From: Methylophilus sp. Leaf416
GTDB lineage: Bacteria > Pseudomonadota > Gammaproteobacteria > Burkholderiales > Methylophilaceae
NCBI RefSeq assembly: GCF_001424665.1
Contig: NZ_LMQS01000002.1
Span: 372,001-436,000, forward strand
Direction of reading: 5' to 3'
DNA length: 64,000 nucleotides
Both the position numbers and the translations under genes were made by a program. The notes beneath the pieces are model-generated. The model saw nothing but the letters and a program-made list of their open reading frames with translations, was not told where the DNA came from and ran no database searches. Below are positions 8,215 to 25,593 of the stretch, one piece after another (the stretch's first letter is position 1; the number at the start of each line of letters is the position of its first letter).

Positions 8215-10860
8215 TTAATCTGCTTTGGTAAATAATTTGATTAGTTTAGGACTGAGTTTTTGTTTGGTTTTTAGATACTCTTTCCAGGGGTCAGACTTCA
8301 TCTGCGACAATCGTTTCCCAATATTCATGATATTGAAACTATCCCCCTGAATATCTCCGCCAACCTCATCCCATGTCAGTGGTGTAGCCACCGGTGCACC
8401 TATGCGGGCTCGCGTCGAGTACGGGACGATAGCGGTGGCACCTGAACCATTGCGCAGGTAATCAATAAAAATCCGCCCTTCGCGTTTCTTTTTAGAAATA
8501 CTGGAAGTGAATCGTTCAGGAATCTGGTCTTCAAGATACTGGGCAATACCGCGCGTAAAAGCTTTCACAACATCCCATGGGTAATCCGCTTTAATCGGCA
8601 CTTCTATGTGCAAACCTTTGCCGCCGGTGGTTTTCACAAAACATTGCAAATCGACTTCTTGTAACAGCCCTCTTAGTAAATTGGCGGCTTCAGTGACTTT
8701 TTGCCATGCAAGATCAGGGGCCGGATCCAGATCGAAAATCAAGCGGTCTGCCAGTGACGTTACCGGATAACGTGAGCCCCAGCTATGTAACTCCAGGACC
8801 CCTAGCTGCACCAGTTCAATGATGGCGGGCAGGTTATTGGCAATAAAGTATTTCGCATCTTTTCCGGCAGGATCAAGCTGTATTGACTGCAGGTGGCTAT
8901 CACGGTCATCAGCCACATGTTTCTGGAAAAAGCAGGCCTTATGGTAACCATCCGGACAACGCACAATAGACAGTGGCCGGTCTTGTAAATACGGCATTAT
9001 CCACTGCTCGATATCTGCGTAATAGCTGGCAATATCGGCTTTGGTGTAGCCATCTTCAGCATAGAGTATTTTGGCAGGATTACTGAGTTTGATACCGGCA
9101 ATCCGTGATCCGTTAACAGACGTTGCGGGTGTTAAACTCGATGTTTTACTACCGGTTTTTTCAGGTACAGCTTTTTTATCCCGCGTTGTTTTTTTCTGCT
9201 GTGTTCCAACGGGTGTTTCTTTATCAAAGTGCTCCGGCGCCAGCATAGTTTCATGTGTGACGTGTCTGGCAGGTTTATCATTCCTTAACCCTACAAAACT
9301 GGCATGCCGCACTGAACCCTCATTAGTCCATTGCGCAAACTTGACTTCTGCCACCAGCGTAGGCTTTAGCCAGTGCACTCCAATGGCTTCCTTACCTTTG
9401 GGGGGATTTACGAACGGAGTCTTTGCAGTGAGCAATTTAGGAAATTGTCCGGCAATCATTTTCAGCGTCTCGGCATCAAAACCGGTGCCTACGCGACCGG
9501 CATAAAGTAACTTGCTTTTTCCTTTATTATTTCCATCATTTGCATCATAAGTACCAAGTAGCAATGCGCCAAAGTGTTCGCGACTCCCGGCTGGATCAGT
9601 ATAGCCTGCCACCACAAACTCTTGCCGCATGCCACACTTCACCTTTAACCAATCTGCGGACCGGTATTGCACATAAGGCGCTTGTGCATCTTTTACCACC
9701 ACGCCTTCCTGACCCAACAAGCAGGCTTGCCGGAATACTTCACCCGCATGACCTTCTACGTGATCACTGAAATGGATAGGACCTTGTGCCTCTTCATCAG
9801 CCTCATCTTTTTTGGCTAGTAACTCTCGCAATAATTGTTTGCGGTCTATCAGTGGCAATGACGTCAGGTCATAACCATCCAGATACATCAGGTCGAAAAC
9901 AAAATAGACCAGCGTAGCTTCTTTATCCAGCCGCATGGCATTTTGAAGCAACTGGAAACTGATATGGCCATCCGGCCCAATTGCCACCACTTCGCCATCC
10001 AGCCACGCAGAATCTACCGGTAAATCAGCCATCGCTTTGACCAGGCCCGGCCATTTGGCTGACCAGTTATGGCCGTTGCGCGTAAGCATGCTGACCTTGC
10101 CTTTTTCAATTCGCGTCAGCGCCCGGTAACCGTCATATTTCAACTCAGCCAGCCATTGATCACCTTCTGGCGCATGTGTTGCCAGCGTCGCCAGTTGCGG
10201 TTTGAAAGTTTCTGGCATGGGCTGGTGTACCTGTTTGGATGCAATATTTTTTGCAGTAGTTTTTCGAGCTGGTTTATAAGTATTGAACTCTGCCGATAAA
10301 TCATGAATGTCAGGCAAAGCACTGACAGACTCAGCCGCAGTTTCGGTAATCTGTGCCTTGGTACCTGTGCGGGATTCATCATCTTGTTCTTTAATCAACA
10401 GCCAGTTGGTTTTATCGTCTTTATCTGCAGGCCTGCTTTTCATACGCACCAGCGCCCATTTACCCTGCAACTTGTGGCCCTGCAGCTGAAATTTCAATGA
10501 GCCGTTTTTGTAGCCTTCCGCCGCATCGCCTATCGGTTCCCAGGTACCTTTATCCCATAACAGCACATGCCCTGCCCCATACTGGCCAGTGGGAATCTCG
10601 CCTTCAAAAGTCCCATAAGCTAAAGGATGATCTTCCACCTCTACCGCCAGCCGTTTGTCGGCAGGATCCAGGCTGGGGCCTTTTGGTATTGCCCAGCTTT
10701 TCAGCGTGCCGTCCAGTTCCAGCCTGAAGTCATAATGCAACCGGCGCGCATGGTGTTTTTGAATGTAGAAACGCAAATGCTTCCCAGCCGCTTCCACCTC
10801 ACCACGTGGTTCACTGGTGATATCGAAATCACGCTTTTTCCAGTATTTTTGTAAGCCCAT
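8215..10860 (-). CDS. ligD: Multidomain DNA ligase D
   Basis: 881-aa NHEJ enzyme with three catalytic modules. An N-terminal 3'-phosphoesterase (about 1-170) includes RRLHYDFRLELDG and PTGQYGAGHV. A central ATP-dependent ligase (about 215-530) carries the nucleotidyl-transfer motif ELKYDGYRAL with Lys241. A C-terminal primase-polymerase (about 600-870) carries the metal-binding FDLDPAP. A low-complexity linker of about 60 residues separates ligase and polymerase. The order PE-LIG-POL matches Pseudomonas-type LigD. It acts with Ku in double-strand break repair, trimming, filling and sealing ends. ku lies 38 bp upstream on the same strand, forming a ku-ligD operon. No domain appears truncated. 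Confidence 0.95.
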   Translation of the reverse strand: MGLQKYWKKRDFDITSEPRGEVEAAGKHLRFYIQKHHARRLHYDFRLELDGTLKSWAIPKGPSLDPADKRLAVEVEDHPLAYGTFEGEIPTGQYGAGHVLLWDKGTWEPIGDAAEGYKNGSLKFQLQGHKLQGKWALVRMKSRPADKDDKTNWLLIKEQDDESRTGTKAQITETAAESVSALPDIHDLSAEFNTYKPARKTTAKNIASKQVHQPMPETFKPQLATLATHAPEGDQWLAELKYDGYRALTRIEKGKVSMLTRNGHNWSAKWPGLVKAMADLPVDSAWLDGEVVAIGPDGHISFQLLQNAMRLDKEATLVYFVFDLMYLDGYDLTSLPLIDRKQLLRELLAKKDEADEEAQGPIHFSDHVEGHAGEVFRQACLLGQEGVVVKDAQAPYVQYRSADWLKVKCGMRQEFVVAGYTDPAGSREHFGALLLGTYDANDGNNKGKSKLLYAGRVGTGFDAETLKMIAGQFPKLLTAKTPFVNPPKGKEAIGVHWLKPTLVAEVKFAQWTNEGSVRHASFVGLRNDKPARHVTHETMLAPEHFDKETPVGTQQKKTTRDKKAVPEKTGSKTSSLTPATSVNGSRIAGIKLSNPAKILYAEDGYTKADIASYYADIEQWIMPYLQDRPLSIVRCPDGYHKACFFQKHVADDRDSHLQSIQLDPAGKDAKYFIANNLPAIIELVQLGVLELHSWGSRYPVTSLADRLIFDLDPAPDLAWQKVTEAANLLRGLLQEVDLQCFVKTTGGKGLHIEVPIKADYPWDVVKAFTRGIAQYLEDQIPERFTSSISKKKREGRIFIDYLRNGSGATAIVPYSTRARIGAPVATPLTWDEVGGDIQGDSFNIMNIGKRLSQMKSDPWKEYLKTKQKLSPKLIKLFTKAD

Positions 10861-10898
10861 GTGTTTACCGGTTTATCATCAATTGTCTAATGAATGCG

Positions 10899-11831
10899 CT
10901 AGGCAGAACGTTTGCGGGGCGGCGTGTCTGCTTTAGACTCGGCTATTTTTTTACTTGTCGTTTTGGACTTGGCTATCAGTTTTTCCGCTTCGGGTTTTGA
11001 CCTGGATTTAGTCACTCCCAACTTAGCCGTTTTATCCCCGATACTGGCTTTGAGTAATTGCATAAGGTCAACCACATTGCTGGATGATGATGCACGCGGA
11101 ACGTCTCCCTCAGCCTCGGGTTCTGTCAATGTATGCGTTTGCTTGGCTTTGACTTTTTTCTTGACCAGCGCCAGCACATCCTGACGGTAAGTGTCTTGGT
11201 ATTGCTCAGGGTTCCAAGGCTCAGACATATCTTTTACCAGCGATAACGCCATCTCAACCTCTTTGGCGGATACCAGTGATTGCTTGCCGGTTTTAGGTTC
11301 GGCCACTTCAGGTAACTCCCTGATTTCTTCCTGGTAACGCAGAAGATTGAGGACGATGACCTTCTGGAATGGCATTAACGCAGCTAGGTGTTGCTTGGTC
11401 CGGATGACCACTTGCCCCAAGGCCAGTTTGCCGGATTTCTCCAATGTCTGCCGCAATAAGGCATACACTTTTTCGCCGCCTTTGCCTGGTACTAAATAAT
11501 AAGGTTGTTCAAAAAAGAATACCGGGATCTCACTGGTATCGATAAAGGACAGGATATCGATGGTCTGGGTACTTTCAGGATTGGCCCTGCGCAAGTCTTC
11601 ATCGGTCAGCACCACATATTCATCCTTTTCATAGGCATAGCCCTTGACGATATCCGGCTGCTTTACTTCTTTACCCGTCACTTTGTTATAGCGTTTATAA
11701 CCGACAGGTGCAAAATCACGTTTATCCAGCAAATCCAAGTCAATACCTGAACTGCTACTGGCAGAATGTAGTTCAACCGGGATATGTACCAGGCCAAAGC
11801 TGATGGCACCTTTCCAAATAGGACGTGACAT
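10899..11831 (-). CDS. ku: NHEJ end-binding protein Ku
   Basis: 310-aa bacterial Ku, beginning MSRPIWKGAISFGLVHIPVEL, the typical N-terminus. The Ku core covers about 1-255 and a lysine-rich tail (about 265-310: KSRSKPEAEKLIAKSK) resembles the DNA-binding extension of other bacterial Ku proteins. The homodimer rings broken DNA ends and recruits LigD. It is the first gene of the ku-ligD operon. A copy of the recurrent stress-promoter motif lies 60-90 bp upstream (11891-11921), suggesting that NHEJ is induced under stress in this organism. Confidence 0.95.
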   Translation of the reverse strand: MSRPIWKGAISFGLVHIPVELHSASSSSGIDLDLLDKRDFAPVGYKRYNKVTGKEVKQPDIVKGYAYEKDEYVVLTDEDLRRANPESTQTIDILSFIDTSEIPVFFFEQPYYLVPGKGGEKVYALLRQTLEKSGKLALGQVVIRTKQHLAALMPFQKVIVLNLLRYQEEIRELPEVAEPKTGKQSLVSAKEVEMALSLVKDMSEPWNPEQYQDTYRQDVLALVKKKVKAKQTHTLTEPEAEGDVPRASSSSNVVDLMQLLKASIGDKTAKLGVTKSRSKPEAEKLIAKSKTTSKKIAESKADTPPRKRSA

Positions 11832-14761: not shown

Positions 14762-14821
14762 GTATCCCCACGCATTACGCCCTAAACTAGTTTCTATTCA
14801 ATGATAAAAAAGGAAATCGCC

Positions 14822-15349
14822 ATGTATTCAATTAAACGTTTAGTGCTGGGTTCAGCCGTGTTGGGCCTGCTTTGTATGAGCTTGAATGTCAATGCCAGAG
14901 ATGTGACTTCTTCCGACAAACGCTTTTTAAAGAACGCTGCAGAATCTGGTAATTACGAGGTCGAAGGTAGTCAGCTGGCACTGAAAAAATCGAAGGATGC
15001 AGACATCTTGAAATTTGCAAAAATGATGACTGAAGACCATACACAGGCTGCTGCTAAAGTTAAAGATTTAGCGGCAAAACGCAATGTGGAGTTGTCCAAG
15101 GAACCTAGCCTGATACAACAAGCCAAGCTTAAATATCTGGAAACAAAAGAGGGTACAAAATTTGATAAAAGTTATGCAGCGGGTGTAGGGGTTGCTGCTC
15201 ACGAGCAAACGATAAAGTTATTTGAAGATGCGGCTGAAGATGCAACGGATCCGGAAATTAAAAAATTCGCAGCGGATACGTTACCAGTGTTGAAAAAACA
15301 TTTGGAAGAGGCAAAACGGATCGATGCTAAAGTTAACAAAGATGACTAA
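14822..15349 (+). CDS. DUF4142 periplasmic stress protein
   Basis: 175-aa exported protein. A signal peptide (residues about 1-25, ending VNA) is followed by a four-helix DUF4142 domain: FLKNAAESGNYEVEGSQLAL, DADILKFAKMMTEDHTQAA, HEQTIKLFEDAAEDATDPEIKKFA. The paired His/Glu pattern suggests a ferritin-like helical bundle. DUF4142 proteins are general-stress-type periplasmic proteins of unknown activity. The frame is open from 14801, but ATG 14822 has the ribosome site (AAAAAGGAAATCGCC) and begins the signal peptide. A terminator follows at 15373. Confidence 0.88.
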   Translation: MYSIKRLVLGSAVLGLLCMSLNVNARDVTSSDKRFLKNAAESGNYEVEGSQLALKKSKDADILKFAKMMTEDHTQAAAKVKDLAAKRNVELSKEPSLIQQAKLKYLETKEGTKFDKSYAAGVGVAAHEQTIKLFEDAAEDATDPEIKKFAADTLPVLKKHLEEAKRIDAKVNKDD

Positions 15350-15372
15350 TTAGTTGCTTGCGCCTATAACAA

Positions 15373-15405
15373 AAAAGCCTAACCTGGCATCCCGGTTAGG
15401 CTTTT
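15373..15405. terminator. Intrinsic terminator after the DUF4142 gene
   Basis: Stem AAAAGCCTAACC / GGTTAGGCTTTT with a 9-nt loop, ending in TTTT. It is bidirectional and also ends the minus-strand ThsB-like gene. Confidence 0.85.
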
Positions 15406-15431: not shown

Positions 15432-15917
15432 TTAACGCTGGGCAACCGCAGTTTCAATCCAGCTTTCAATGTTTTCACTGATATGCGCATACACTTCTTT
15501 ACTGGTTTCGCCTGGCGGATCATAAGTGTGAATAGTGTCCATCGCCGGCCGGCCGTCCGGCATACTCAACCCCTCAAAAGGATTAGGCCCGGGAGTACTT
15601 TCCTGCTGATTTTGATCCAGCAATCTGTGTATCCTGATACCCAATAAACCCTTGCCTTTAGCCAGAGATTGTTCTATTTCATAATGTACCCATTTGCTAT
15701 TTGCAGTTTGCGCGCCTATGAGTACAACAGTGCAACTACGCCCATTTAGTTGCTCGTTTATCCAGCGTCTAATAGCTGAATCCTTGGTTTTCAACACTGA
15801 CTCCCAGGAGTTATCAATTGCAGCCTGATTACCTGCCACTACGCCGATATTCCGCACCATAGAAGCCCGCCAGCTATCATGGTCATAATCAAAACTGTAG
15901 AAAACCTTGCGCGCCAT
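15432..15917 (-). CDS. ThsB-like TIR (DUF1863) protein
   Basis: 161-aa protein with the fold signature of the MTH538/ThsB branch of TIR domains: KVFYSFDYDHDSWRASMVRN at the N-terminus, WINEQLNGRSCTVVLIGAQT, then SKWVHYEIEQSLAKGKGLLGIRIH. The Glu at position 80 (W-V-H-Y-E) sits where catalytic TIR domains have their NADase glutamate. In Thoeris, ThsB senses phage and makes a cyclic ADP-ribose signal. No ThsA (SIR2-SLOG or Macro-TM) gene is adjacent; instead a SLOG gene and a second TIR gene lie 165 bp upstream on the same strand. A degenerate copy of the stress motif (GTCCTAC, lacking TCAG) precedes it. Confidence 0.8.
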   Translation of the reverse strand: MARKVFYSFDYDHDSWRASMVRNIGVVAGNQAAIDNSWESVLKTKDSAIRRWINEQLNGRSCTVVLIGAQTANSKWVHYEIEQSLAKGKGLLGIRIHRLLDQNQQESTPGPNPFEGLSMPDGRPAMDTIHTYDPPGETSKEVYAHISENIESWIETAVAQR

Positions 15918-16082
15918 ACAAGCCCTGTGAAATTCAAACCATTATGGTACTTTAAATGCCAGGAAGCTTGTAGGACAAATCAGATTTTTTTGATTTTCCT
16001 GGTGATCATCAAAACTAAGCAGTTGCTGGTTAATTAACTGATGGTCAATAAGCTAGTGTCTAGGAATATTTTATTTGGAATG

Positions 16083-16667
16083 CTATTGCATCGGGTTGGT
16101 GGCATAAGCAAAATGGGCATGAAAAAGTCGCGCAAAATCTATATCTGCAAGATCAGTTTGAGTCGCATAGCCATGATCTAACACTAAATTTAAAGCGGCA
16201 CCACCGGGCGAAGGTACTGGTAAAATGCTGGCGTGCGGATGATAGTATTTGAATATTGCATGTTCGGTTTCCACCCCTTCCATGCCGCCTATAAAGACGG
16301 CGCCAATGAGATCTTTGCGTGAAAGCATCTCCTTGCGCATTTGCAGGATGCTAGCTTCCCTGTTATTGGAGACAGCGTTGGTATAAATGACATTGCCAAA
16401 CTTTTTGTTTTCCTCAGCAAACTCATCTTTAAAAAACTTGCTCTGATAGAGGATGACTGCATCGGCGTAATCTACGCCCAAGTCCTCGCAGATGCTCCAT
16501 AACATGGGTGTAATCGCCGGGTGCCCTCCCCAAACAATTTTATGCTGCCTGATCACAGCAACCACCATCTCACGCACCGCACACTGGATAAGGAACGGGT
16601 TAGCCGTCTCGTGATAGGTACCACGGTTTGTAACCGGCACACTGGCTGAAAGAAATATTGCTCCCAT
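16083..16667 (-). CDS. Stand-alone SLOG-domain protein (LD_cluster3 type)
   Basis: 194-aa Rossmann-like protein: MGAIFLSASVPVTNRG at the N-terminus, the glycine-rich nucleotide loop KIVWGGHPAITPML (about 43-56), and a second glycine turn GAVFIGGMEGVETEH (about 140). These mark the SLOG superfamily, which binds nucleotide-derived ligands, and most resemble the cluster found beside TIR genes. The frame extends to 16739, but ATG 16667 starts one base after the upstream TIR gene's stop and has a GGGGA ribosome site within that gene. It probably senses a signal nucleotide made by a TIR enzyme (inference). Confidence 0.78.
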   Translation of the reverse strand: MGAIFLSASVPVTNRGTYHETANPFLIQCAVREMVVAVIRQHKIVWGGHPAITPMLWSICEDLGVDYADAVILYQSKFFKDEFAEENKKFGNVIYTNAVSNNREASILQMRKEMLSRKDLIGAVFIGGMEGVETEHAIFKYYHPHASILPVPSPGGAALNLVLDHGYATQTDLADIDFARLFHAHFAYATNPMQ

Positions 16668-16668
16668 A

Positions 16669-17820
16669 TTAATGATTTCCCCAATGCTCAAATTGCTGAC
16701 TGGCTTCGGTGACTTTAATCCAACTGTCGGGTTGAGCATGTGTGTTTAGCCAATCCAGGTAATGCAGGCCTTTTTGACACATACCTATTGGATCATATAT
16801 TACGGCTACGGATTGTTCGGGTGACGATGTATGGTTAAGCGCTTCATCCAGAAGGACAGGAGTTGGTACACCAAACGTTGGATACACTGTCAGAAATTGT
16901 CCCGCAGGTAACTGCATATGCATCGCCCTGTTAGTGCTGACACCCAGCATTTTTCCACCGATCGCCTGAATAGCGATACGGAGGTTGCTGATAATATTGA
17001 CTGAACGTATGGCGTGATTCTGGCTACGGATTTCTTTCAGTTTCAAGCAGACATTTTCCAATGCACCCTCTTCAAGTAGCCCTGTGTCGACATGAATATC
17101 TTCGGTTTTAAGATCGGTCAGCCAGGCAGTTGCAGAGCGTCGGGAGGGAGTAACTTCAGGCCAGCTCACCCGCAAAATGCTAATGCCTTTAGCCAAGACC
17201 CGGCCAAATTCCGCGTTCGTCCAGCGATCATCAAAATAGCTGGGGGTGTCCAGCATTAACAATACATCCGTGTCATATAGCTTGTGCCATGACAGGGCCT
17301 TTACATCTTCATCCATTTCATTGCCATGCGTGTCAAGAAACACATCAAATTGGCGCGCTGACAATGCTTCATAAAGCTGTAAAGCAGCGGCTGAAGCCTC
17401 ACTATGATGGTGACTGATAAATACGCGACGTTGGTAAGGCAGTAATCCTACACACTCGAGCAAAGCGTTCGCGATGTGCTGAGCGCCGCCTTCTGTGTAA
17501 TTCAGGCAGTTCAGTGGCTGCAATATTTCAGGTAATTCTGCCTGCTGTTTATTCAAGTCGGATACTACTGGCAATACTGGTACGCCACGCTCTAAAAGTT
17601 CTTCGAGGTTTACAATACCTAGGGTATCTCCGCCAAAGAATACCGCGGCTGAAGGTTGAAGCTGATGTGGCTTGAAACTGGCAGGTAATACATCCCAGGC
17701 CACTTCATGTCCAAGTCGTAAATTAAACTTTTCCAAAGCAGTGGCTATGCATTGGCTGAGATCGCGAATTTGCGCTTCTGTTGGCGCACCCAGCACGGCA
17801 AGTTGATATAAAAAAGTCAT
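16669..17820 (-). CDS. TIR-domain protein with unknown flanking domains
   Basis: 383 aa. The TIR domain spans about 131-270: RRVFISHHHSEASAA (strand A), FDVFLDTHGN, TDVLLMLDTPSYFDDRWTNAEFGRVLAKG with the probable NADase glutamate at 204. The N-terminal 130 residues form a Rossmann-like segment (LAVLGAPTEAQIRDL, AAVFFGGDTLG) that itself resembles a degenerate SLOG-like fold. The C-terminal 110 residues (GKMLGVSTNRAMHMQLP) are unrecognised. Translationally coupled to the SLOG gene (1-nt gap). A role in NAD depletion or signal synthesis during phage attack is inferred from the TIR/SLOG pairing. No promoter motif was recognised upstream. Confidence 0.78.
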   Translation of the reverse strand: MTFLYQLAVLGAPTEAQIRDLSQCIATALEKFNLRLGHEVAWDVLPASFKPHQLQPSAAVFFGGDTLGIVNLEELLERGVPVLPVVSDLNKQQAELPEILQPLNCLNYTEGGAQHIANALLECVGLLPYQRRVFISHHHSEASAAALQLYEALSARQFDVFLDTHGNEMDEDVKALSWHKLYDTDVLLMLDTPSYFDDRWTNAEFGRVLAKGISILRVSWPEVTPSRRSATAWLTDLKTEDIHVDTGLLEEGALENVCLKLKEIRSQNHAIRSVNIISNLRIAIQAIGGKMLGVSTNRAMHMQLPAGQFLTVYPTFGVPTPVLLDEALNHTSSPEQSVAVIYDPIGMCQKGLHYLDWLNTHAQPDSWIKVTEASQQFEHWGNH

Positions 17821-18858: not shown

Positions 18859-19513
18859 ATGTATCCTTCCGTAAACAGATCGGAGAGTGTTACATCCCTT
18901 GATTCAAGATTGGGAAATAGCGGGTGCGAAAAAGCTAGCATTTGGCAAATAATCATGTTTTTAATGACAAGTTTTAGCATACTCGCCTCGAGATTAATAA
19001 TCAGCATTCCTTTAGACTTTCAATCATATTCGGGAATAATTCCCACCCAACGCAGCTGCCTTAGAAAATGGTTAGATCGGCAATACAATAAATAAAGCCA
19101 CGATATTGCCACCAATTCTACTAGTCCCCAGTAAGTCACAATCCGGAGATTAATGCGCCTGAACATGAATTTTGATTTTCTGATATTGAATTAGGAAAGA
19201 AGCGCGGCGATTTACAAAACACGGTCAATTTAATGCTCGGCTTCGTGTAAGAATCATCAGTGGGAAAAACCACCAATAGAGTGTTTTTATAGGGATTTTT
19301 ATGAATAATTTTACAGAATTAAGACATTTTTATATTTATTTTCTGCCAAATTAAAGGCTTCTATACATCTTGCTTTTAAAGCGCTCCCCTAAACCCACAA
19401 AACCATATAGACTGGTTATTTGGCAACAATTTTAGATATTAAAGAACAATTGATTTGGTTCTTTAGAAGAATTGGTAATCACAATTACCTATAACCGAAC
19501 AGCGGAGATAAAA
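18859..19513. other. AT-rich region upstream of the stressosome operon
   Basis: About 650 bp of AT-rich sequence without a supported gene. It should carry the promoter of the rsbR-like operon. The ribosome site GCGGAGATAAAA (about 19502-19513) sits just before the rsbR start. I see no copy of the recurrent stress motif facing the operon. Confidence 0.4.
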
Positions 19514-20374
19514 ATGAGTCAGGATTCAACTTTGCAACTTGCAGGGCTTATCAAAGGGAATGAAGCAGCTTTAGTCGACGAATTAATCACGGCGATGAGA
19601 AATAAACTCATGCGTTTTGACAAAGCATCAGAGTCAGAGATTAGGCAACAGACCGCGCAGTTGCTCAAGCTGTTGGAACTGAACATCCCGAAAACAACGA
19701 CCCACAACCTGAATGATTCCATCTGGGCTGAAACAAAACAATTGCTGACCGAGTTTTCCCATGCCAGGGTAAAACAAGGATATACCCCTGCTGAAACTGC
19801 TAGCATCATTTTTTCTTTAAAAGAACCGATTTTTAAACTTTTGCGGGCCTCGCTGACAGATCAACCACAACAACTGGTAGAAGAACTGGCAACCACTACC
19901 GCCTTGTTCGACAGTCTGGGACTGTACACCATTGATGTTTTCCAAAAGGCCAGGGAAATGGTGATTTCACGTCAACAACAGGAACTGCTCGAATTATCTA
20001 CCCCGGTGGTGCAATTATGGCAAAACGTTCTCGCGTTGCCACTGATCGGGACGCTGGACAGCGCCAGAACGCAAGTGGTGATGGAAAACCTGCTGCAAAA
20101 GATTGTAGAAACAGGCGCGCTGATTGCGATTATTGATATTACTGGCGTACCGACAGTCGATACCCTGGTCGCCCAGCATTTGCTGAAAACAATTGCTGCG
20201 GCGCGCTTAATGGGTGCGGATTGCATTATCAGCGGCATCAGGCCTCAAATTGCGCAAACCATTGTCCATCTGGGTGTCAACCTGGAAGACGTGATTACCA
20301 AAGCAACACTGGCAGATGCATTCGTGATTGCATTGAAAAAAACCGGTGCTTCTATCACTAACTCAGCGGCGTAG
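19514..20374 (+). CDS. rsbR: RsbR-type stressosome protein
   Basis: 286-aa scaffold protein of a stressosome. The N-terminal helical RsbRD-type sensory domain (about 1-140) lacks a recognisable ligand motif; the C-terminal STAS domain (about 165-280) contains GALIAIIDITGVPTVDTLVAQHLL with the usual phosphorylatable Thr residues (about 214 and 217). In the family, RsbR and RsbS form a large complex that holds RsbT; RsbT phosphorylates both on stress and is released. The open frame begins at 19472, but ATG 19514 has the ribosome site GGAG. First gene of a six-gene operon. Confidence 0.9.
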   Translation: MSQDSTLQLAGLIKGNEAALVDELITAMRNKLMRFDKASESEIRQQTAQLLKLLELNIPKTTTHNLNDSIWAETKQLLTEFSHARVKQGYTPAETASIIFSLKEPIFKLLRASLTDQPQQLVEELATTTALFDSLGLYTIDVFQKAREMVISRQQQELLELSTPVVQLWQNVLALPLIGTLDSARTQVVMENLLQKIVETGALIAIIDITGVPTVDTLVAQHLLKTIAAARLMGADCIISGIRPQIAQTIVHLGVNLEDVITKATLADAFVIALKKTGASITNSAA

Positions 20375-20382
20375 GGGGCATA

Positions 20383-20736
20383 ATGGAACGCATTCCAATC
20401 CTCAGGATGGGCTCATTATTGCTGGTGACCATCCAGGTCGATATGCATGACCGCCTGGCGATGACTTTACAGGAGGATTTGACAGACCGCATTGTGAAAG
20501 ACCGCGCTAAAGGAGTCCTGATTGATATCTCTGCGCTGGATATTGTGGATTCATTTATTGGCCGCATGATCAGCAATACCGCTGCTATGGCAAAGATACT
20601 TGATGCCAAGACTGTAGTGGTTGGCATGCAGCCCGCTGTGGCGATTACGCTGGTTGAACTGGGACTGGCACTTGAAGGCGTGAGTACAGCGCTGAATGTT
20701 GAACGTGGCATCGCCATGTTAGCTCAACGCGAATGA
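20383..20736 (+). CDS. rsbS: RsbS-type STAS antagonist
   Basis: 117-aa single STAS domain: PILRMGSLLLVTIQVDMHDRLA, GVLIDISALDIVDSFIGRMI with the phosphorylatable Ser57 in DIVDSF. It is the scaffold partner of RsbR that sequesters the kinase RsbT. It starts 8 bp after rsbR and is followed by rsbT 40 bp on. The whole sequence matches the length and motif order of the family. Confidence 0.92.
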   Translation: MERIPILRMGSLLLVTIQVDMHDRLAMTLQEDLTDRIVKDRAKGVLIDISALDIVDSFIGRMISNTAAMAKILDAKTVVVGMQPAVAITLVELGLALEGVSTALNVERGIAMLAQRE

Positions 20737-20776
20737 GCGGCTTTTCAGAGTATAAAAAACCACACATGGTGCTTAA

Positions 20777-21193
20777 ATGAAAACAGCAGAGTCAGGTGCG
20801 GTAGTCATGCCCTTGTATAGTGACGAGGATGTGGTTCGCTTAAGAAAACTGGTTCGCGAGGAACTGGCCGCTTTGGGGTTTGGGATTGTTGACCAGACCA
20901 AAATGATTACAGCGGCGAGTGAGCTCGCCAGAAACACTTTGAAATATGGCAAAGGCGGCGAATGCCATTTAGGCAAATTGAATGAATCGCCCAAAATTGG
21001 TGTCGAATTAGTATTTACCGATGATGGTCCCGGGATAGAAGATACGGCTCTGGCACTTACTGACGGTTATACCAGCGGTGGTGGTTTAGGGCTGGGCCTG
21101 AGCGGTGCCAAAAAACTTTCTGATGAGTTTCATCTTGAAACACGGCTTGGTGAAGGCACGACTGTCACCATCAGAAAGTGGAAATTCTCATGA
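20777..21193 (+). CDS. rsbT: RsbT-type switch protein kinase
   Basis: 138-aa GHKL ATPase/kinase. N-box ITAASELARNTLKYG, G1 box DDGPGIED, glycine-rich GGGLGLGLSGAKKLSD. RsbT phosphorylates RsbS and RsbR, then leaves the stressosome to activate its output partner (in Bacillus, the phosphatase RsbU). The stop overlaps the next gene's ATG (ATGA), so translation is coupled to the phosphatase gene. Confidence 0.92.
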   Translation: MKTAESGAVVMPLYSDEDVVRLRKLVREELAALGFGIVDQTKMITAASELARNTLKYGKGGECHLGKLNESPKIGVELVFTDDGPGIEDTALALTDGYTSGGGLGLGLSGAKKLSDEFHLETRLGEGTTVTIRKWKFS

Positions 21194-22203
21194 TGCGTTT
21201 AGGAACACAAAGTAGCCATAATATAGGTGAAATCGGCGAAGTTTCATCTGCACGCAGGGCTGGCGTAGAGCTGAGCCGAAAGTTAGGGTTTGATGAAGTG
21301 CGCGCCGGGGAGTTGGCTATTATCATTACCGAGGCGGGGACTAATATTGATAAACATGCCAGCTCGGGAACAATTTACATCCGGGCGATTTCAGCAGGTG
21401 AAAAACATGGTGTAGAAGTGCTTGCCGTCGATTCAGGCCCTGGTATGGGGAATATTGAGCTAAATTTTGAAGACGGTAATTCTTCCACCGGCACTTATGG
21501 CACAGGCTTGGGCGCAATCAAACGACTGGCACACCATGTGGACATTTACTCCGAGCATGGCAAAGGTACGGTGCTGCGGATGATTCTGTGGGCTGAGCCG
21601 GCAATGGTCTCCGAAGACTTCTGGGAAATTGGCACTATATGTGTACCGATCCCATCAGAAGAGGTGTGTGGTGATTCCTGGACGGCGGTTGGCTCGGGAA
21701 CTGTACTGAGTGTATTGGTCGCTGACGGACTCGGCCATGGACAAGGCGCGGCAGATGCCTCTTTATTGGCCGTGAAAGCGATGGAAACTGATCCGGATTT
21801 TTTCCCGTTACGGGCCATGCAAAACAGCCACGCGCTGATGCGCGGCAGTCGGGGCGCAGCAGTCGCCATCGCCAGAATTGATGTCAATGCCCAAGAGATC
21901 AGGTATTGCGGCGTCGGCAATATCGCCGGCTGCATATTTTCAGCTGAAGGCCGCCAGCACCTGATTAGCCACAATGGCATTGTCGGTACCAATATGCTTA
22001 AAACACAGGAATTTACGCATGCTTGGAAACAAGATGCCCTGGTCATCATGCACTCCGACGGCATCAGTACTAAATGGGCGCTGGAAAATTATCCAGCTCT
22101 TGAAAAATGCCATTCGTCAGTGATTGCGGCAGTGATTCATCGCGATTTCACACGTGGCAGGGATGACGCTACTATCGTTGTTTTCAAGCGTATCTTAAAT
22201 TAA
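21190..22203 (+). CDS. RsbT-like ATPase fused to SpoIIE/PP2C phosphatase
   Basis: 337-aa fusion. The N-terminal GHKL ATPase (about 1-135: ELAIIITEAGTNIDKHA, VDSGPGMGN, GTYGTGLGAIKRLA) is joined to a PP2C-type SpoIIE/RsbX-like phosphatase (about 145-337: VLVADGLGHGQGAADAS, HSDGISTKW, RDDATIVVF) with metal-binding Asp residues. It probably removes phosphates from RsbR/RsbS (RsbX role) or from an output STAS protein. ATG 21190 overlaps the rsbT stop; a GTG at 21178 and an ATG at 21193 are alternatives. ATPase-phosphatase fusions of this kind occur in Gram-negative Rsb modules. Confidence 0.85.
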   Translation: MMRLGTQSSHNIGEIGEVSSARRAGVELSRKLGFDEVRAGELAIIITEAGTNIDKHASSGTIYIRAISAGEKHGVEVLAVDSGPGMGNIELNFEDGNSSTGTYGTGLGAIKRLAHHVDIYSEHGKGTVLRMILWAEPAMVSEDFWEIGTICVPIPSEEVCGDSWTAVGSGTVLSVLVADGLGHGQGAADASLLAVKAMETDPDFFPLRAMQNSHALMRGSRGAAVAIARIDVNAQEIRYCGVGNIAGCIFSAEGRQHLISHNGIVGTNMLKTQEFTHAWKQDALVIMHSDGISTKWALENYPALEKCHSSVIAAVIHRDFTRGRDDATIVVFKRILN

Positions 22204-22216
22204 TCATTAGGCACAA

Positions 22217-24037
22217 ATGTCGATTAGATTTCTCGCGCTAAGTATCGAAACCGAACTGGATGTCGTCGCTGCCAGACAGCGTGCGAGGGATATCGCTGCC
22301 ATCTGTGGCTTTGCCTTGCAAGATCAGGCACGCATTTCCACGGCGGTTTCAGAGCTTGCCAGAAATGTGTACAACTACGCCGGTAAAGGCCGTATTGAAT
22401 ATTCAATTGAGGGAACGACGGTTCCGCAATTATTGACGATTCATATCGAAGACAAAGGCCCGGGCATTCCGCATATCAAGGAAGTGTTGTCTGGCAGTTA
22501 TCAATCACCTACCGGCATGGGTCTGGGCGTGATTGGGGCAAAAAGGTTGATGGATCGGTTTGAAATCAATACGGATAGTAGTGGCACGTCGATTATCCTG
22601 CGCAAGTTTTTACCTAAAAGCGCACCCTTGCTCACGCCGGCCAAAGTCGGTAGTTCTATCTCGCAACTATCAGAACTGGCCCCTAATATTTCTCTATCTG
22701 AAGTCCAGCACCAGAACCGTGAATTGCTACGCATCCTGGATGAATTGAATGCCAGACAAAAAGAGCTAATTTCCCTGACCGAGGAACTGGAAGATACCAA
22801 TCGCGGTGTACTGGCCTTATATGCCGAGCTGGACGAAAAAGCCAGTCATTTACGCCGGGCGGATGAATTGAAGTCGCGTTTTCTTTCCAATATGAGTCAC
22901 GAGTTCAGGACGCCGCTCAACTCAATCAGGGCATTGGCGAAACTGTTGCTAGACAAAATGGATGGCGACCTCACCACCGAGCAGGAGGTGCAAGTGCAAT
23001 ACATTATGAAAGGTGCAGTTTCTTTAAGCGACCTTGTGAATGATCTGCTGGATATTGCAAAAATAGAGGCGGGTAAAACTGAAGTAAAACCGACCAGTTT
23101 TTATGTCAGTGAAATGTTCAGCGCCTTAAGGGGTATGCTGAAACCGCTGCTGGTATCCAATAAATTAGCACTTAACTTTACCTTCCCTGAAGCAGATATA
23201 GAACTGTTTCAGGATGAAGCAAAAATTTCGCAGATTCTTCGTAACTTCATCTCAAATGCGCTGAAATTTACCGAAGTCGGCAGCATTGAAGTCAGCGTAT
23301 CAGTTGACGAACGCGATTGTGTGACTTTCGCGGTTAAAGATACCGGCCTTGGCATTCCGAAAGAGCATCTTGATTTGATTTTTGAGGAGTTTTCCCAGGT
23401 AGAAAATCACTTACAAAAAGCCGTCAAAGGGACGGGTTTAGGCTTGCCATTATGCAAAAACCTGGCCTCATTACTGCAGGGGAAAGTTTCAGTTGAAAGT
23501 ACAGTCGGCCAAGGTTCGACTTTTGCGGTTTCGCTGCCCGCCAAAATCAAACTGGTCAGTGCTATTGAAGATCCGATTCCGGCCATCACCGTCCAGGATA
23601 ATCGCTTACCTGTGATGATTATCGAAGATGAGGAGTTTGAACAGTTGCTATATAGACGCTATCTGGATGATAGTGAATTCAGGGTAATTCCTGCTCGTTC
23701 CCTGCGTGAAGCAAATGCCATGTGGAGCCAGGTTAAACCTGTGGCTGTCTTACTGGATATTTTGCTCAAGGGCGAAGATTCCTGGCGCTGGTTAGCGGAT
23801 TTGAAACAGGATGAACAGCGCAATGTACCTGTGATAATTGCTTCAAGTGTAGAAGATGAAAGAAAAGGCCTTGCCTTGGGGGCAGATGCCTATTTCCAAA
23901 AACCGTTGCTTAAAGCCGATTTGCTTTCCAGCTTAAGAGAATTATTAAATGTGGGGCGAGAAAACTCTTTAGAAGCGCTAGCCAGCGCTAAACATTCGAC
24001 GTCAGATGCGACAACTATTCCATCGGATAACCCGTAA
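22217..24037 (+). CDS. RsbT-like / histidine kinase / receiver hybrid protein
   Basis: 606-aa protein with three signalling parts. An N-terminal RsbT-type GHKL domain (about 1-133: ISTAVSELARNVYNYAG, IEDKGPGIP, GMGLGVIGAKRLMD) is followed by a coiled coil (about 165-218), a HisKA domain (NMSHEFRTPLNSIRALAKLLL) with HATPase (about 320-450: DTGLGIPKEH, GTGLGLPLCKNL), and a C-terminal receiver (about 470-585: MIIEDEEFEQ, LLDILLKGED as phosphate-accepting Asp). It links stressosome-type switching with two-component phosphotransfer in one polypeptide. ATG 22217 is 13 bp after the phosphatase stop. Confidence 0.85.
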   Translation: MSIRFLALSIETELDVVAARQRARDIAAICGFALQDQARISTAVSELARNVYNYAGKGRIEYSIEGTTVPQLLTIHIEDKGPGIPHIKEVLSGSYQSPTGMGLGVIGAKRLMDRFEINTDSSGTSIILRKFLPKSAPLLTPAKVGSSISQLSELAPNISLSEVQHQNRELLRILDELNARQKELISLTEELEDTNRGVLALYAELDEKASHLRRADELKSRFLSNMSHEFRTPLNSIRALAKLLLDKMDGDLTTEQEVQVQYIMKGAVSLSDLVNDLLDIAKIEAGKTEVKPTSFYVSEMFSALRGMLKPLLVSNKLALNFTFPEADIELFQDEAKISQILRNFISNALKFTEVGSIEVSVSVDERDCVTFAVKDTGLGIPKEHLDLIFEEFSQVENHLQKAVKGTGLGLPLCKNLASLLQGKVSVESTVGQGSTFAVSLPAKIKLVSAIEDPIPAITVQDNRLPVMIIEDEEFEQLLYRRYLDDSEFRVIPARSLREANAMWSQVKPVAVLLDILLKGEDSWRWLADLKQDEQRNVPVIIASSVEDERKGLALGADAYFQKPLLKADLLSSLRELLNVGRENSLEALASAKHSTSDATTIPSDNP

Positions 24038-25593
24038 TGAAAGACACTCAACCAAAGGCGGTTGAAATGATAAGAAATCATCCATTGCATGATTTTTTGA
24101 TATTGAATGTGGATGATACTGATGCCGCCAGGTACGCAAAATCCAGGATTCTGACCAAAGCCGGGTTCAGCATCATAGAGGCTTCCAATGGTGGCGATGC
24201 CATCTCAATGGCAAACAGCGAGCATCCCAATCTTATTTTACTGGATACCAGATTACCGGATATCAACGGCTTCGAGGTATGCAGAAGATTAAAGTCTTCC
24301 CCCGCCACCGCTTCCATTGCCATCCTTCAAACGTCTGCTTCGTTCATTACCTTGATAGATAAAATCAATGGTATTGAATGCGGCGCTGATAATTACCTGT
24401 TTGAACCCATAGAGCCTGAAGAGTTAGTCGTCAATATTAAAGCGTTACTGAGACTTAGCTTGGCCGAGCAGGATGTGCGCGAAATTAATAGAAGAAAAGA
24501 TATATTCCTGGCCACCCTTGCGCATGAATTACGTAATCCGTTAGGCCCGATACGAAACTCTATCAAGTTGCTGAAAACTTTGAATACCAAGCTCAATGCC
24601 AAAGAGTTTGAGCTATTGGATATTATCTCGCGCCAGACCGACCAGATGGTAAAACTGGTGGATGACCTGCTGGATGTTTCGCGGATTTCACAGGGGAAAA
24701 TTTCGCTAGATATCGAGACCTTGAATGTGCGTGACTTTGTCGAGGCAGCGGCAGAAAGCAGCAGCAATTTAATTGCCGATCGCGGCCATCAGATCACCAT
24801 CACAATCTGGCCTGAGCCACTGTGGGTTTCCGGTGATAGAGTGCGCTTGATCCAGATCATCAGCAACCTGATTAACAATGCCGCCAAATTCACACCTGCC
24901 GGAGGCTTGATTACTGTTGATGTGACTAAAGATCAACAGTGCGTACTGATTAAAGTGACAGATAACGGCATCGGTCTGGATGAAGAGCATCTGCACAATA
25001 TTTTTGACCTGTTTGTACAGCATGCGCATACCGAAGAGCGCGCACAGGAAGGCCTGGGCATCGGGCTTTCGCTGGTAAAAAACCTCACACATTTGCATGA
25101 CGGCGAAATCAGCGTGACCAGCCCGGGTATCAATAATGGCAGTACATTTACTTTGGAATTAAAGCTGGTAGCCGCACCACAGTATGAAATCAAACCTGTT
25201 GCTGCATTACAGGTCCCTCAGGACTTATCAAAAGAAAATACCAGAGTATTGGTAGTCGATGACAATGAGGATGCTGCCAGCACGCTTTCCGATTTATTGG
25301 AGCTGGCCGGTAATAATGTGAGGAGCGCTAACTCAGGCAAAGAAGCCCTCAAAGTAGCTGAGGAGTTTTTACCAAATATCATATTTCTGGATATCGGCCT
25401 GCCTGATATGACCGGCTATGAAGTTGCAAAAGCCGTTCGCCAGATAGAAAAACTCAGTAAATGCTATCTCATTGCCCTTACTGGCTATGGTACGGCGTCG
25501 GACAAGAAAAATGCACTGGATGCAGGTTTCGATTTGCATTTAACCAAGCCCCTGGATTATGAAAAAATTGAATCCATCAATCTCGGGCTTTAA
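24037..25593 (+). CDS. Receiver-HisKA-HATPase-receiver hybrid kinase
   Basis: 518 aa. The first receiver (about 18-140) has ILNVDDTDAARY and LILLDTRLPDINGFEV. HisKA at about 160-220 has LATLAHELRNPLGPIRNSIKLL, and a HATPase follows (DNGIGLDEEHL, GLGIGLSLVKNL). A C-terminal receiver (about 400-515) has VLVVDDNEDAASTL, IIFLDIGLPDMTG. No membrane segment: a soluble kinase likely driven by the first receiver. Its ATG overlaps the previous stop (TAATG), so it closes the operon. No output regulator with DNA-binding domain is present, so the final target lies elsewhere. Confidence 0.88.
   Translation: MKDTQPKAVEMIRNHPLHDFLILNVDDTDAARYAKSRILTKAGFSIIEASNGGDAISMANSEHPNLILLDTRLPDINGFEVCRRLKSSPATASIAILQTSASFITLIDKINGIECGADNYLFEPIEPEELVVNIKALLRLSLAEQDVREINRRKDIFLATLAHELRNPLGPIRNSIKLLKTLNTKLNAKEFELLDIISRQTDQMVKLVDDLLDVSRISQGKISLDIETLNVRDFVEAAAESSSNLIADRGHQITITIWPEPLWVSGDRVRLIQIISNLINNAAKFTPAGGLITVDVTKDQQCVLIKVTDNGIGLDEEHLHNIFDLFVQHAHTEERAQEGLGIGLSLVKNLTHLHDGEISVTSPGINNGSTFTLELKLVAAPQYEIKPVAALQVPQDLSKENTRVLVVDDNEDAASTLSDLLELAGNNVRSANSGKEALKVAEEFLPNIIFLDIGLPDMTGYEVAKAVRQIEKLSKCYLIALTGYGTASDKKNALDAGFDLHLTKPLDYEKIESINLGL

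Follow-up and report, generated by a model that had tools for sequence, protein, structure and literature searches.

A compact type III Thoeris locus in a Methylophilus species and the possible division of signalling, sensing and killing among its three proteins

Three neighbouring genes of a methanol-consuming Methylophilus species, running on the minus strand from position 17820 to 15432 of the 64,000-nt stretch of DNA analysed here (the window), encode, in this order, a long TIR protein, a SLOG protein and a short TIR protein. The locus raises the question of which of these proteins signals infection, which senses the signal and which kills. Its features are as follows.

16669..17820, minus strand: ThcB4, a 383-aa TIR protein (NCBIfam NF058526, E 6.8e-120; PADLOC PDLC00434)
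16083..16667, minus strand: ThcA, a 194-aa stand-alone SLOG protein, LD_cluster3 (NCBIfam NF058525, E 1.6e-72; PF18180)
15432..15917, minus strand: a 161-aa ThsB-like TIR protein (PF08937, E 5.7e-25; PADLOC ThsB PDLC00433, E 9.8e-63)
15371..15403, minus strand: hairpin followed by a T run, after the third gene (read by eye)

The open reading frames were confirmed, all on the minus strand, as a preliminary description of the DNA had placed them: 15432-15917 (161 aa), 16083-16739 (the SLOG frame, 218 aa) and 16669-17820 (383 aa). That description was also accurate on Glu204 of the long TIR, Glu80 of the short one, the GGHPA loop of the SLOG protein and the 165-bp gap between the ThcA stop and the start of the small TIR gene. 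The start of the middle gene was revised. Because the NCBIfam ThcA match begins at residue 28 of the 218-aa frame, and relatives of ThcA begin at the equivalent of MGAIFLSAS, ThcA likely starts at the ATG at 16667 and not at the start of the frame at 16739. This ATG lies 1 nt past the ThcB4 stop codon (16669), so that the two genes do not overlap. A terminator scan found no terminator-like site on the minus strand of the 165-bp gap, and a single transcript for all three genes is therefore plausible. Near the hairpin, the scan lists a plus-strand reading alone (15383-15400); this element is probably a bidirectional terminator shared with the convergent gene at 14801-15349.

The genes nearest to the locus look ordinary, judging from their translations. 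Recent import was considered on grounds of composition and rejected, the GC and GC3 of the three genes being like those of their neighbours. Elsewhere in the window, translations suggest Ku- and LigD-like genes of bacterial end joining (8215-11831) and, on the plus strand, a stressosome-like row of genes resembling STAS, an anti-sigma-type kinase, a phosphatase and a hybrid histidine kinase (19472-24037). A 518-aa protein is encoded at 24037-25593; its residues 399-463 match the start of the Shedu SduA model (E 1.2e-13).

The preliminary description had presented the locus as a TIR/SLOG/ThsB-like island. A name for it exists: in NCBIfam (June 2026) the SLOG gene scores 243.1 bits (cut-off 110) against the equivalog ThcA, NF058525, and the long TIR 400.3 bits (cut-off 220) against the equivalog ThcB4, NF058526, both of "Thoeris type III". 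With both matches above the curated cut-offs and ThcB4 adjoining ThcA at 1 nt, the locus is, by its sequence, a small, compact form of the already named type III Thoeris defence system. Pfam identifies the middle gene as SLOG LD_cluster3 (PF18180, E 4.2e-71) and places a TIR_2 domain (PF13676, E 1.3e-9) at residues 133-225 of the 383-aa protein. The small TIR matched no NCBIfam model at E up to 1 and is a ThsB by both Pfam (ThsB_TIR, PF08937) and PADLOC. The term "Thoeris type III" had appeared in the literature by 2025, in a paper describing a phage gene, TadIII, that protects from this system, in a paragraph citing Costa et al. 2025 (PMC12390725); its link to the NCBIfam models is through the name only. 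The main text of PMC10889362, in the part available, does not mention Thoeris. The names ThcA and ThcB suggest that those who coined them regard ThcA as the counterpart of the ThsA effector and ThcB4 as that of a ThsB signal maker.

No ThsA was detected, in keeping with the preliminary description. The STALD SLOG model of ThsA (PF18185) has no match in the whole genome of the strain; as a positive control, the same model finds matches in 4 of 398 genomes of the phylum. The ThsA macro model of type II (PF20016) also has no match in the genome, in a search that included no positive control match. At E<=0.001 the only TIR_2 matches of the genome are the two TIRs of the locus, and the small TIR is its only ThsB_TIR match. 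Signal maker, sensor and effector probably reside on different chains; the preliminary description had suggested that they may be split differently.

To place the locus among its relatives, the best 80 of 305 ThcA relatives were surveyed, a sample biased to close relatives. Near-identical loci were kept in the 80-locus and full-flank counts and dropped only in the covariation test, which started from the 36 loci whose small TIR lies on the same strand and no more than 300 bp away, and retained 24 non-redundant ones; two of the surveyed loci (L036 and L037) appear to come from the same genomes as two of the genus genomes discussed below (G400 and G403). In 74 of the 80 loci, no more than 200 nt separate the end of ThcB4 from ThcA. 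Spacing from the ThcB4 stop to the ThcA start could be parsed in 56 of the 77 loci with both genes: it ranges from -4 to +3 nt in 53 and is +7 in one, the last two values (2110 and -281 nt) reflecting misparsed or broken genes. By this conserved spacing ThcB4 and ThcA are coupled in translation; this part of the initial claim stands, with the 1-nt spacing found here. The two proteins also diverge together (r 0.74 over the 24 non-redundant loci, 0 of 2000 shuffles), and the covariation of the small TIR is looser (r 0.32, 11 of 2000 shuffles, same 24 loci). At E<1e-8, none of the ORFs in the 80 loci joins ThcB4 to ThcA, or the small TIR to one of these two.

Is the small TIR part of the system? 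If the third gene were an unrelated neighbour and ThcB4-ThcA alone the system, the 165-bp gap and the looser covariation would find a ready explanation, as would five distant loci (L027-L031) in which the pair has no other TIR in the examined DNA, one of them (L028) a 6-kb contig. This reading is nevertheless very improbable. Of 22 genomes of the genus, four have ThcB4 over the cut-off; all four carry the small TIR, and none of the other 18 does. A further genome, G412, has a TIR whose similarity to the ThcB4 model is weak (E 3.3e-4) and does not reach the cut-off. Were the two genes independent, the coincidence would have a hand-computed chance of 1 in 7315, a figure to be read with fewer than four independent events in mind since two of the four loci share surroundings. 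A TIR gene besides ThcB4 is present in all 51 loci with full flanks (50 by the filter; in the 51st, L104, the other TIR overlaps the ThcB4 ORF), and the gap itself holds no terminator-like site on the minus strand. On the genus census and the 80-locus survey, the small TIR was rejected as an independent neighbour. The preliminary description had also regarded the ThsB-like gene as the unusual part of the locus, and had asked for the neighbourhood survey that now answers the point: a ThsB-like TIR (E<1e-10) lies somewhere in 64 of the 80 loci, which makes it the usual state among close relatives, and in 44 it is encoded no more than 1.5 kb away on the same strand; the TIR-counting HMMs had been built in part from genes of the surveyed loci. 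The nearest small TIR follows the ThcB4-ThcA pair in 35 loci, precedes it in 29 and is missing in 16, which suggests that the TIR genes around the pair are exchangeable. In the five distant loci, where the pair stands alone, ThcB4 itself must sense or signal, and in some lineages it can probably function with no second TIR beside it.

In all four loci of the genus the three genes stand in the same order. At E<=1e-5 the window locus has no flanking sequence in common with the other three. The four loci thus occupy three distinct settings, consistent with separate arrivals; rearrangement is also possible. For either flank of the window locus, fragments find matches in 3 of the 21 other genomes; these matches show 72-75% identity or cover 34-74 bases, and one of 38 bases lies near the system of genome G400. 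An empty site was not found, the two flanks occurring together nowhere else among the 21 other genomes. Within the best 80 of the 305 relatives, the closest ThcA proteins are those of Methylophilus methylotrophus and an uncultured Methylophilus (77% and 74%). More widely, ThcA exceeds the cut-off in 7 of the 398 phylum genomes, the present one included, and is present in 29 of 72,556 plasmid records, of which 18 are predicted to be conjugative. It was found at two loci in viral contigs and in none of the phage records; a PHROGs search gave no match for ThcA or ThcB4.

Among solved structures, the small TIR is nearest to EcThsB (8wcf, E 3e-39) and BcThsB (6lhy, E 9.3e-24). Its residues F6 and E80, the latter predicted to be catalytic, align with identical residues of both and are conserved in 70 of 70 proteins. 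In S. aureus ThsB2 the corresponding Phe6 and Glu81 are needed (PMC12578639). The small TIR is thus the candidate signal maker of the locus.

ThcA is the candidate sensor. Its predicted model (pLDDT 88.5) gives as top structural match the SLOG domain of BcThsA with bound 3'cADPR (Z 13.7, rmsd 2.8, 158 residues aligned); all five best matches of the model come from ThsA, and the two ranked highest hold bound cADPR isomers. TM1055 (Z 13.0) is within 1 of the top value and must be considered tied with it; DprA (12.6) and LOG (12.2) follow, and Foldseek alone pointed to DprA. By sequence no solved relative was found at E<=0.1, and another search gave four rows at chance level. (The structure alignments took 51 of 57 filtered loci for ThcA and 47 of 48 for ThcB4, the rest being left out by hand.) The GGHPA loop corresponds to G47-A51, and G47, G48, P50, R111, M114, F125, G127 and G128 are invariant in the 80 loci; E135 is kept in 78. 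In BcThsA, the pocket residues reported are Ser288, Phe357, Arg371 and Glu403 (PMC7272460). The BcThsA motifs VFLSGS, YRRDMI and GVQSE match IFLSAS, MRKEML and GVETE of ThcA, so that Ser288, Arg371 and Glu403 correspond by motif to S7, R111 and E135, Phe357 falling outside the mapping. A profile alignment of ThcA with ThsA places R111 and E135 likewise, although the match is weak (probability 15%, E 0.0017) and drew on 2 of 4 ThsA loci (L133 and L134 were left out). A conserved Arg and Glu are found SLOG-wide, LOG hydrolases included, and for this reason R111 and E135 are no proof of a sensor.

The same residues admit another role for ThcA. Both TIRs might sense phage and make signal, and a LOG-like ThcA might be the effector, being switched on or cleaving a nucleotide, and so kill the cell. 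This alternative is unlikely, yet has several points in its favour. It agrees with the NCBIfam names (see above) and with the distant loci that have the pair alone, and LOG folds score Z 11-12 against the ThcA model. LOG phosphoribohydrolases carry the signature motif PGGxGTxxE; the GGM-x-G-h-x-x-E motif conserved in ThcA (E135 in 78 of 80 loci) resembles it, and GGMEGVETE keeps the GG and the Glu. The ThcA motif is, however, one residue longer than the LOG signature, the nearest folds are ThsA SLOG sensors (though tied), and in one distant relative (L031) the Glu is missing. The SLOG of L031 does not reach the ThcA cut-off, and a large NACHT/FGE-sulfatase protein comes after it.

ThcB4 would be the executioner. 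Its predicted model (pLDDT 92) comprises an N-terminal alpha/beta domain (residues about 1-125), the TIR domain (about 130-262) and a C-terminal domain (about 270-383). The modelled TIR is nearest to that of SARM1 (Z 15.5, rmsd 2.5, 120 residues aligned), a match that ties with C. elegans and plant TIRs; Foldseek alone returned nothing clear beyond low-ranked TIRs. The predicted catalytic residue E204 is invariant in 77 of 77 relatives and F134 is kept in 76, three of the 80 loci being omitted for lack of a ThcB4 ORF of at least 330 aa (cut contigs or broken genes). The conservation of the catalytic Glu in both TIRs was the second check proposed at the outset, and in both families it is complete. 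Neither this check nor the neighbourhood survey refuted the preliminary description. At the start of its TIR domain the window ThcB4 has His137 and His139, where 76 of the 77 relatives have Tyr and Arg. Profile comparison of the N-terminal domain with ThcA gave a weak match over 36 columns (probability 19.6%); that this domain is a second SLOG is not claimed. ThcB4 could instead be an infection sensor only, the small TIR acting as cyclase and ThcA or another factor as effector, which appears rather improbable. The precedent comes from S. aureus, where ThsA-B1-B2 works in this manner: ThsB1, 41.8 kDa in tagged form and with a dispensable Glu, binds a capsid protein and recruits the cyclase ThsB2 (PMC12578639). 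The extra domains on both sides of the ThcB4 TIR would suit such a part. Set against this are the coupling of ThcB4 to ThcA, closer than that to the small TIR, and the invariance of E204, though the latter is no proof of catalysis by itself.

The explanation that best accommodates these observations, tentatively held at somewhat under an even chance, is that the small TIR signals, ThcA senses and the coupled ThcB4 is an NADase effector. Phage infection would activate the 161-aa ThsB-like TIR, which would convert NAD to a signal of the cyclic ADP-ribose type. This signal would bind the pocket of ThcA, a role suggested by its fold and pocket residues. ThcA, made together with ThcB4 and presumably bound to it, would then switch on the ThcB4 TIR, which would destroy NAD and halt the infected cell. 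The whole would amount to a ThsA split into two coupled chains, a SLOG sensor and a TIR (instead of SIR2) executioner. If the small TIR is an exchangeable sensor that works for a constant sensor-effector pair, its looser covariation and shifting place are to be expected. The five distant pair-only loci and the family names speak against this model.

Two other SLOG-fused effectors are at times found in the same loci as the ThcB4-ThcA pair: a SLOG-patatin protein (>400 aa) in 14 of the 80 loci, and a SIR2-SLOG ThsA in one (L094) and on a Cupriavidus plasmid. The simplest reading of this company is that ThcB4-ThcA is itself such a combination of effector and sensor, with ThsB-like proteins making its signal. 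By extension, and with the odds leaning moderately against it, type III Thoeris in general may be a split ThsA in which ThcA controls ThcB4 in trans, one TIR signalling and the other serving as a signal-gated NADase, and loci that combine multiple TIRs with multiple SLOG effectors may be networks sharing ADP-ribose signals. The Cupriavidus plasmid (NZ_CP062806.1, 77348-95908) carries a CBASS phospholipase (by annotation), ThcB4-ThcA, several TIR genes, a full ThsA (SIR2-STALD by Pfam) and genes annotated as pyrophosphohydrolase and uracil-DNA glycosylase. On an E. coli plasmid (NZ_CP034659.1, 202000-220000) the genes TIR 175, TIR 161, SLOG-patatin-type phospholipase, TIR 275, ThcB4, ThcA and TIR 190 lie on one strand beside a TnsD-family gene, ThcA being annotated there as "hypothetical protein"; one may guess that this gene order is behind the name ThcB4.

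A second, often convergent block of genes adjoins the pair in 27-29 of the 80 loci (L038-L058 and others). It contains UDG-superfamily, MazG_C and Nmad2 genes and a ThsB_TIR of about 155 aa, one copy of each having been tested; an example lies at about 8100-11030 of L042, on the minus strand. Six loci (L066, L067, L068, L072, L079 and L080), five from Enterobacterales and one from an Acidobacteria MAG, add a gene with a 5-hmdU DNA kinase domain and a thymidylate synthase homologue (tested in L068), and four of them also a small kinase-like gene. The block resembles a module for nucleotide modification that is linked to a TIR. A 2026 paper includes MazG-C and a nucleotide modification associated domain among its predicted defence domains (PMC13092281).

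With two TIRs that are the sole TIR_2 matches of the genome, this small locus offers a clean model for determining who signals, who senses and who kills, and its value is as a test case for the division of these tasks in type III Thoeris. It shares with type III, as defined in NCBIfam, the two models over cut-off, the adjacent genes and an order as in relatives; it has one further TIR, whereas the E. coli plasmid relative has four further TIR-annotated genes and adds the SLOG-patatin-type phospholipase. With LOG phosphoribohydrolases and the SLOG superfamily, ThcA has in common the fold (Z 11-12) and the conserved Arg and Glu; it differs in its glycine-rich motif, one residue longer, and in a context rich in TIR genes. 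Type I Thoeris (ThsA, a SIR2-SLOG protein, with ThsB) likewise has a ThsB-like TIR and a SLOG that the ThcA model resembles in fold, with pocket Ser, Arg and Glu matching by motif, but in the present genome, devoid of a STALD SLOG, the sensor would be a separate chain paired with a TIR. The S. aureus ThsA-B1-B2 system (PMC12578639) also combines a long and a short TIR, the latter with Phe6 and Glu80/81, with a SLOG-containing partner; in the Methylophilus locus the partner is without SIR2 and the long TIR is coupled to the SLOG gene.
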